Positions 44,054-47,349 of a stretch of 64,000 nucleotides of DNA are shown here, piece after piece. Numbering within the stretch: the first letter of the stretch is position 1; every line of letters starts with the position of its first letter. The position numbers and the translations under genes were made by a program. The stretch lies in the IMG/VR virus record IMGVR_UViG_3300042308_000168, positions 110,500-174,499 of that record; one strand, written 5' to 3'. The notes below the pieces were generated by a model. It did not search any database, had not been told where the DNA came from, and worked only from the letters and a program-made list of their open reading frames with translations. Source of the DNA: a virus.

Positions 44054-44082
44054 TTGACATTCCCGTTTGTGGCATATATAAT
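44054..44082 (+). promoter_or_regulatory. sigma70-like promoter of the tRNA array
   Basis: TTGACA 44054-44059, 17 bp, TATAAT 44077-44082. Related to the TTGACATTCCGTTT promoters (one inserted C). The first tRNA begins 19 bases downstream. Confidence 0.85.
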
Positions 44083-44763: not shown

Positions 44764-44792
44764 TTGACTATGCGTTTTGTTGCCTATATAGT
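44764..44792 (+). promoter_or_regulatory. sigma70-like promoter
   Basis: TTGACT 44764-44769, 17 bp, TATAGT 44787-44792; drives the 60-aa gene at 44823 and the main tRNA block. A GTGCG/CGCAC hairpin (about 44726-44743) just upstream resembles the pmoC terminator but lacks a T-run. Confidence 0.75.
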
Positions 44793-45005: not shown

Positions 45006-45047
45006 TGCTGTTTGACAATTGAATCTGGCTATAGTAATATAGTAATT

Positions 45048-45122
45048 GGGCTGCGGGTCGGATGATAAGGCACAGGACTGCAAATCCTTGAGGACTCGGT
45101 TTGATTCCGAGGCAGCCCTCCA
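45048..45122 (+). tRNA. tRNA-Cys(GCA)
   Basis: Acceptor GGGCTGC/GCAGCCC, anticodon loop CTGCAAA, T-loop TTTGATT, T73 and encoded CCA. Its last A begins the 20-bp inverted repeat that follows. Confidence 0.9.
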
Positions 45123-45276
45123 TTACTATTACGCCAACGGATTAGATTGCGGTTCGAAACGTTGACAGTAACACGGTTGCAATTGATCCGGAGCAAGTTC
45201 GATTCTTGCATAAAATTGGCTGAACGGTGATAGGAGAGCCTATCGGTTATCTCTAGTCCGTTGGCGTAATAGTAAT
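45122..45276 (+). ncRNA. 155-nt element closed by a 20-bp perfect inverted repeat
   Basis: 45122-45141 (ATTACTATTACGCCAACGGA) is exactly complementary to 45257-45276. Inside are a tRNA T-arm-like hairpin (GCAAG-TTCGATT-CTTGC, about 45194-45210), a 6-bp hairpin GATAGG/CCTATC (about 45229-45244) and ATTGC/GCAAT. The core GCCAA can also pair with TTGGC at about 45217. The 10-mer ATAGTAATAT flanks the tRNA-Cys plus element on both sides (45031, 45269). No ORF. Confidence 0.7.
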
Positions 45277-45678: not shown

Positions 45679-45682
45679 ATAT

Positions 45683-45763
45683 CACCACGTATCCCCCTCG
45701 GCTACGAACCGAGAGTAAGGTAACTGGATGTAAATAGAGGTTCGACTCCTCTCGTGGTGGCCA
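45683..45763 (+). tRNA. tRNA-Arg(ACG)-like, no recognisable D-arm
   Basis: Acceptor CACCACG/CGTGGTG, anticodon arm CTCGG-CTACGAA-CCGAG (ACG) and T-arm AGAGG-TTCGACT-CCTCT are perfect, with G73 and CCA. Only 7 nt (TATCCCC) separate acceptor and anticodon arm, where a D-arm should be, while 22 nt occupy the variable region. Confidence 0.7.
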
Positions 45764-45769
45764 TATAAT

Positions 45770-45844
45770 GCTGGTAGGTCGGCAAGATGTCGAGGAGTCC
45801 TCATAAGGCTTTAAAGGTTGGTTTGATCCCAACTATCAGCACCA
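45770..45844 (+). tRNA. tRNA with CAT anticodon (Met or Ile2)
   Basis: Acceptor GCTGGTA/TATCAGC, anticodon loop CTCATAA, T-arm GTTGG-TTTGATC-CCAAC, A73, CCA. D-loop lacks a clear GG. CAT may be Met, or Ile reading AUA if C34 becomes lysidine. Confidence 0.85.
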
Positions 45845-45961
45845 ACATGAAGGACGGTACTCGGGTAATGCGAGACCTGAGGAGAACATGCTTTTGGTTC
45901 GCACATTAGCATTAAGTATCCACATATAACCGTGGAGCGTTTCTTCTACTTACAAGTTTTT
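45845..45961 (+). other. 117-nt inter-tRNA spacer with small hairpins
   Basis: No ORF and no tRNA fold. Visible helices: CTCG/CGAG (about 45860-45874) and CCAC/GTGG (about 45920-45935); GGTACT (about 45856) can pair with AGTATC (about 45914). Function unknown. Confidence 0.4.
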
Positions 45962-47211: not shown

Positions 47212-47213
47212 AG

Positions 47214-47340
47214 TTTTGTGAGGCAGTATCGATATCACGGATGAGCAGAATTGCCACATCGAGGTCGGGAGACGGTGCGAGGCTGTCGTAACCTTGGGAA
47301 CCCGGATACTGAAAAGAGGATGCATACTCGTTCCTCACAA
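47214..47340 (+). ncRNA. 127-nt inter-tRNA RNA with closed terminal stem
   Basis: TTTGTGAGG (about 47215) pairs with CCTCACAAA (about 47332), immediately followed inside by CAGTATC/GATACTG (7 bp). Internal hairpins GATG/CATC and GACGG/CTGTC. The nested order suggests a multibranched RNA; no CCA, so not a tRNA. Confidence 0.5.
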
Positions 47341-47349
47341 ATAGTTTAT

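Follow-up and report, generated by a model that had tools for sequence, protein, structure and literature searches.

A structured RNA family with probable partial tRNA mimicry in phage tRNA arrays

Phage tRNA arrays hold a short list of RNAs that are not tRNAs, all of unknown function, and we add to it here a covariation-supported family, class 1. It is represented by a 155-nucleotide (nt) element in the tRNA array of IMG/VR virus record IMGVR_UViG_3300042308_000168, of which positions 110,500 to 174,499 (64,000 nt, hereafter the window) were analyzed. Comparable cases are described in the papers cited here. T4 rnaC and rnaD (species 1 and 2 RNA), annotated adjacent to the T4 tRNA genes, are stable late RNAs that show on Northern blots and have no known function (PMC9697503). 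GOLLD and ROOL are phage RNAs found near tRNA islands, also without known function (PMC12286853). A Listeria phage has abundant RNAs near its tRNA genes along with an Rsr-like protein and has been considered a potential source of Y RNA (PMC12282133). Phage tRNA loci also serve counter-defence, with tRNAs directed against tRNA-cleaving defences in T5 and in T6, where tRNA-Tyr is amplified via SegB (PMC13096335).

Class 1 resembles the T4 RNAs in being small and lying beside phage tRNAs, but the T4 sequences, compared by eye only, have neither its core nor its long closing helix nor its cassette frame. With GOLLD and ROOL it shares the location and the lack of a known function, but those RNAs are several hundred nt long, have another structure and give no Rfam match at the element, which agrees with the original prediction, made from the sequence of the window, that the element is much shorter than either. 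The counter-defence tRNAs of T5 and T6 are real tRNAs, whereas the class-1 RNA lacks both an anticodon arm and a CCA end. The T4 RNAs and the counter-defence loci are analogies to class 1.

The fold of the class-1 RNA

Class 1 is a new family of RNAs, well supported by its structure, with probable partial tRNA mimicry in most members. Its core is a three-way junction with the invariant hairpin loop GUUCGAAA in the P2 hairpin, and the whole is closed by a long helix, P1, while a shorter helix, P3, encloses a variable domain that differs between subtypes. In the window, the following parts were delineated:

45122..45276, + strand: class-1 structured RNA element, 155 nt (folding, covariation, model R1 match)
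45122..45146, + strand: P1 5' arm, the outer ~10 nt site-specific and the inner part class-specific
45252..45276, + strand: P1 3' arm, inverted-repeat partner of the 5' arm
45149..45162, + strand: P2 hairpin GCG-GUUCGAAA-CGU; the loop, 45152-45159, does not vary among the 11 aligned members
45162..45167, + strand: junction strand UUGACA; 9 of 11 members have KGACA here, L095 and L251 being the exceptions
45168..45172, + strand: P3 5' strand, pairing with 45246-45250
45246..45250, + strand: P3 3' strand, pairing with 45168-45172
45229..45244, + strand: hairpin GAUAGG-AGAG-CCUAUC, predicted by folding

The original prediction of a 155-nt element closed by a perfect helix of 20 base pairs (bp) is borne out by the arm coordinates, by shuffling and by folding. 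The P1 arms, 25 nt each and spaced by 105 nt, are 96% complementary (24 of 25 pairs), and their outer 20 pairs are perfect, forming the longest perfect inverted repeat of the 64-kb window at spacings of up to 300 nt; the runner-up has 15 bp. In 40 dinucleotide shuffles, perfect inverted repeats averaged 11.9 and did not go beyond 15, and a chance origin of the 20-bp repeat was rejected on this comparison. The folding z-score of the element is -6.06, a value matched in 0 of 200 shuffles, and model R1, which includes the window sequence itself, matches the element with 154.4 bits (E=3e-41).

IMG/VR viral contigs were searched for homologues with a pattern built from both P1 arms and then the core CGGTTCGAAACGTNGACA. 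The search returned 32 stretches, of which 27 are class 1 and five are not: L042, a possible distant member, and L045, L046, L050 and L052 (L numbers denote the contigs and loci compared). With L095 and L251 added, there are 29 class-1 contigs besides the record of the window and 12 unique class-1 sequences including that of the window, every copy lying inside a tRNA array; two further search patterns yielded no additional class-1 member. Alignment A3 comprises 11 of the 12 unique sequences. L056/L088 (near-identical to L035) and the truncated L041 were left out of all alignments, and the distant candidate L042/L257 was neither aligned nor counted among the 29 contigs. P1, the P2 loop GUUCGAAA and P3, which define class 1, are present in all 11 aligned members, these having been found partly by the same features. 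Model R1 gave a single strong match in 10 of the 16 records searched, which may be fragments, and the element is single-copy in all 10. L107 was rejected as class 1 since, despite an R1 match (E=4e-6), its P2 loop is absent by eye and the match is taken to be P1-driven; reverse-strand R1 matches were dismissed as due to the symmetry of P1.

No Rfam family matched the element at E≤10 in a search that included YrlA, GOLLD, ROOL and tRNA. BLAST against 50,697 phage records revealed no isolate homologue, just tRNA or chance pieces, and 115 stretches retrieved from bacterial genomes with a relaxed core pattern lacked the class-1 architecture, with helix scores of at most 17 versus 21–26 in class 1. 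No paper describing the element was found in the open-licence PMC literature, a scope that excludes most subscription papers and so does not show the element to be unpublished. Conservation, covariation and the absence of an Rfam match, the last from a check that had been suggested along with it, support the original idea of a novel phage RNA. An assembly artefact, which had been named as a way for that idea to fail, is very unlikely: an identical 271-nt region occurs in L005, L015 and L018, contigs that may represent repeat assemblies of one virus, and 26 more contigs have related versions.

All three helices are maintained across the 11 aligned members. In P1, which is 21–25 bp long across class 1, 23 pairs were counted, with 99.6% of cells paired and 11 pairs changed on both sides; the three pairs of P2 and the five pairs of P3 are formed in 100% of cells, and two P3 pairs are changed on both sides. 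Taken together, 99.7% of 336 cells are paired and 14 of 31 pairs are changed on both sides. The covariation score is 0.434 compared with 0.191 after shuffling (0 of 500 shuffles as high), and sliding the partner by 1–3 columns lowers pairing to 24.7–55.6%. G-U pairs are kept in P1 and P3 (column 21/182 is U-G in 8 of 11 members), which points to an RNA rather than a DNA cruciform, and the cruciform was rejected. On the other side of the balance, the "further pair types" measure does not rise above shuffles (121 of 500), the aligned members are related to one another so that the counts are not independent events, and 45228-45245 scores as a weak terminator-like site. Overall, the element very probably belongs to a conserved structured RNA family. 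Three subtypes were distinguished by the variable domain: A (the window, L016, L022, L032, L035, L044 and L049), B (L038 and L039) and C (L095 and L251).

The P2 loop contains a self-complementary hexamer (G-UUCGAA-A), and the RNA could work as a homodimer joined by kissing P2 loops. The hexamer is invariant in all 11 members, and GOLLD, ROOL and OLE form homo-oligomers (PMC12286853). However, the same letters also fit a T-loop (UUCGAAA), and no covarying alternative palindrome was seen; we consider dimerization through this loop improbable.

Probable tRNA mimicry in the variable domain

Two parts of the variable domain bear on a relationship to tRNA:

45193..45209, + strand: T-arm-like hairpin GCAAG-TTCGATT-CTTGC, 5 bp, loop UUCGAUU
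45223..45231, + strand: AACGGUGAU strand, kept by most members of subtype A (that of the window)

The hairpin had been foreseen as a T-arm-like structure without a full tRNA or CCA end, and this description is accurate: neither ARAGORN nor Rfam called a tRNA within 45123-45276, and the tRNA (RF00005) cloverleaf was not found there. Counting as T-arms those hairpins that have 5 or more bp and a T-loop-type loop (U-U/G-C-G/A-A), we detected one in 7 of 11 members, where shuffling each domain gives an expectation of 0.04. The T-arm is followed at 0 nt by a hairpin of 4–7 bp in 6 of the 11 (0.008 expected from shuffles); in L095, 5 bp with a 7-nt loop precede a 7-bp hairpin. This T-arm/acceptor stack, closed by a loop in place of the CCA end, resembles a circularly permuted tRNA order, and the AACGGUGAU strand may provide the GG receptor that docks the T-loop. 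Thus, of the earlier proposal of a processed decoy tRNA, the structural part stands in that most members have a T-loop hairpin, often followed by an acceptor-like one; processing and a decoy role are putative.

Several observations set limits to tRNA mimicry. The window copy keeps the canonical T-arm and is missing the acceptor-like second hairpin of its relatives, the T-hairpins of L035 and L049 are weak and mismatched, and subtype B has neither a T-arm nor an acceptor-like hairpin. Mimicry is not universal across class 1, whereas the P2 loop is. Partial tRNA mimicry in most members is the probable reading.

The T-arm at 45193-45209 also contains GTTCGATTC, a match to the reverse complement of RAWTSGAAC, the SegB cleavage motif reported in T6 (PMC13096335); the match is a possible reason for recombination in the arrays.

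Class 1 resembles YrlA (RF02553) in that its 5' and 3' ends pair and, in 6 of 11 members, a T-arm leads directly into a closed acceptor-like hairpin. The same order is found in the Xanthomonas phage L258, in which YrlA-like RNAs lie beside a TROVE gene. In contrast to YrlA, class 1 has no Rfam match, no D-arm that we could see, an invariant P2 hairpin in a three-way junction and a much longer, uninterrupted P1, and there is no TROVE gene in the record of the window. The YrlA covariance model does not place the element in that family, while the positive control L258 scored E=5e-10; a working resemblance holds for 6 of 11 members.

Y RNAs have a Ro60-binding motif, and class 1 might be a genuine Y RNA with Ro60 (Rsr) as its partner. 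Its permuted T-arm/acceptor-hairpin order matches that of the phage YrlA-like RNAs, and the distant candidate L042/L257, in which 23 of 24 core letters are shared by eye and R1 matches weakly (E=9e-4), sits in a phage encoding a TROVE protein; L042 has, by eye, its own sigma-70-like promoter and a terminator-like hairpin, and its record is the only one of 16 with a TROVE protein. Against this, none of the 10 records with a strong class-1 match (which may be incomplete) has a TROVE match, at E≤10 the Rfam YrlA model gives no match to the element, five other TROVE phage loci lack the core motif at up to three substitutions, and UUGAC is lost in L095 and L251. A Y RNA identity is improbable, and the Y-RNA link is a lead, not a result. 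In L258, positions 2343-2903 hold YrlA-like RNAs (two clear, one weak), one of which overlaps an annotated tRNA-Thr.

Cassette exchange at the tRNA-Cys site

The element lies on the tRNA strand, flush between two tRNA genes:

45048..45122, + strand: upstream tRNA-Cys with encoded CCA (Rfam), its last base being the first base of P1
45279..45356, + strand: downstream tRNA-Asn (ARAGORN)
45012..45040, + strand: promoter-like site before tRNA-Cys (consensus match only)
44764..44792 and 44054..44082: further promoter-like sites (consensus match only)

The tRNA-Cys (Rfam match 45048-45119) was missed by ARAGORN. The element does start at the last base of this tRNA, as had been stated, and that base ends the encoded CCA. 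The direct repeat ATAGTAATAT that was said to bracket tRNA-Cys and the element is real, but it is present only in the window, L035 and L044 and absent from L032, L095 and L070; because it occurs in 3 of the 6 relatives inspected at the site, the window included, and its upstream copy overlaps the promoter-like -10 box at 45035-45040, it is no conserved bracket. A sigma-70-like promoter of their own precedes, by eye, the class-1 copies between tRNA-Ser and tRNA-Ala. The window belongs to a 174,499-base record with a T4-type gp41 gene upstream; the closest gp41 among the isolates listed, that of Methylophilales phage Melnitz, is 58.7% identical, and therefore no close isolate is known here.

We surveyed the region after tRNA-Cys, including loci in which ARAGORN had missed this tRNA. 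Class 1 occupies the site in the window, L032, L035, L044 and L095, four other cassette classes occupy it among relatives, and the comparison of related phages, suggested at the outset, thus gave class 1, other cassettes or an empty frame:

L064, L083: class 2 cassette, tRNA-like
L067, L070: class 4 cassette
L069, L072-L075: class 5 cassette
L078-L082: class 6 cassette
L064-L066: three cassettes in tandem
L101: open reading frame
L251: nothing inserted
L086/L090: empty frame, both outer arms kept

The empty frame of L086/L090 has an alignment score of 16, compared with at most 7 for 5,000 random 25-mers of the window. An inverted-repeat scan of the loci compared and of tRNA gaps revealed further cassettes in closing helices of 18–25 bp, and Rfam searches of the loci with other cassettes gave just tRNA-related models and sub-threshold matches. 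Class 1 itself occurs at four array positions: between Cys and Asn or Glu, Ser and Ala, Met and Lys, and Gly and Met. Class-1 copies from different sites have 58% identity over the outer 8 bp and 91% over the inner 10 bp (39 pairs); at the Cys site, cassettes of different classes have 79% identity over the outer 9 nt and 24% over the next 10 nt (34 pairs). Therefore, the outer ~9 bp go with the site, whereas the inner ~10 bp go with the cassette.

The occurrence at four positions and the empty frame in L086 and L090 would also fit a mobile DNA element with terminal inverted repeats. At 155 nt, however, the element is too short for a transposase open reading frame, its outer arms track the site and not the element, it always lies in tRNA arrays on the tRNA strand and keeps G-U pairs, and the direct repeat, seen in half of the relatives inspected, is not conserved as a target duplication. 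A mobile insertion in the usual sense, as originally suggested, is scarcely credible; what we see instead is cassette exchange at a fixed site.

A less remote alternative is that P1 acts only as processing punctuation, an RNase III site or insulator that separates tRNA precursors, with the interior as a spacer. P1 lies flush against both tRNAs, unrelated cassettes also have a P1-like closure, and the class-4 cassette of L022, with a different left arm, still pairs via G-U (by eye). Yet neither the invariant GUUCGAAA loop nor the covarying P3 nor the T-arm would be kept in a spacer, and such punctuation is not needed by many neighboring tRNAs that stand just 4–8 nt apart. We regard this explanation as unlikely.

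RNase III plays a role in the maturation of T4 RNA. Our preferred reading, which we judge about evenly poised, is that class 1 is a family of caged tRNA-mimic RNAs that are cut from the tRNA transcript and act in trans on some tRNA-binding protein; target and function we infer. The element would be transcribed together with the neighboring tRNAs and freed by host tRNA-processing enzymes and by RNase III acting at P1. The stable RNA may then occupy a host or phage protein that recognizes the tRNA elbow, acting in trans via the invariant P2 loop and, in most members, the tRNA-elbow mimic, and could serve as a Y-RNA-like scaffold or as a decoy against tRNA-directed defence. We put forward the trans-acting scaffold or decoy tentatively, at somewhat less than even likelihood. 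The P2 loop, the T-arm and P1 are clear parts to mutate.

Carriage of this or other RNAs in one frame at the same site suggests exchangeable tools for dealing with the host, and cassette replacement between related phages resembles that of host-directed accessory genes. More speculatively, and with the balance of probability well against it, the arrays may hold docking frames, i.e., site-specific short helices, that swap families of caged RNAs, several of which imitate a T-arm without CCA, as an exchangeable stock of decoys or scaffolds with which to counter the host's tRNA-directed immunity or its tRNA-handling enzymes. If true, such frames would be an RNA counterpart of a counter-defence gene island. 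The swapping of unrelated RNA classes within one helix frame makes it a testable question whether the non-tRNA RNAs of the arrays form an accessory host-directed repertoire.

Further structured sequences in the arrays

In L064 (2709-3152), the stretch from tRNA-Cys to a degenerate tRNA-Asn-like sequence, itself followed by tRNA-Glu, holds a tandem of three different RNA cassettes that share the right-arm repeat TAAGAGTATT. At L113:15806-15941, L113:18183-18385 and L119:15175-15316, tRNA-like bodies lie within helices of 19–23 bp and have a conserved GGTGGCCAC hairpin; one of them was read as tRNA-Arg GCG.

In the window, positions 45682-45842 hold two sequences resembling tRNAs (by eye, with anticodons ACG and probably CAT) that ARAGORN did not call. 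The gap after the Met-type tRNA-like sequence (45843-45961) contains another conserved structured stretch (GCATTAAGTATC...CACATA), which resembles gaps of L113 and L115 by eye and clusters with other gaps. The gap between tRNA-Ala and tRNA-Glu (47212-47349) has no Rfam match, is conserved in L069 and L073-L075, and is possibly a further RNA family.
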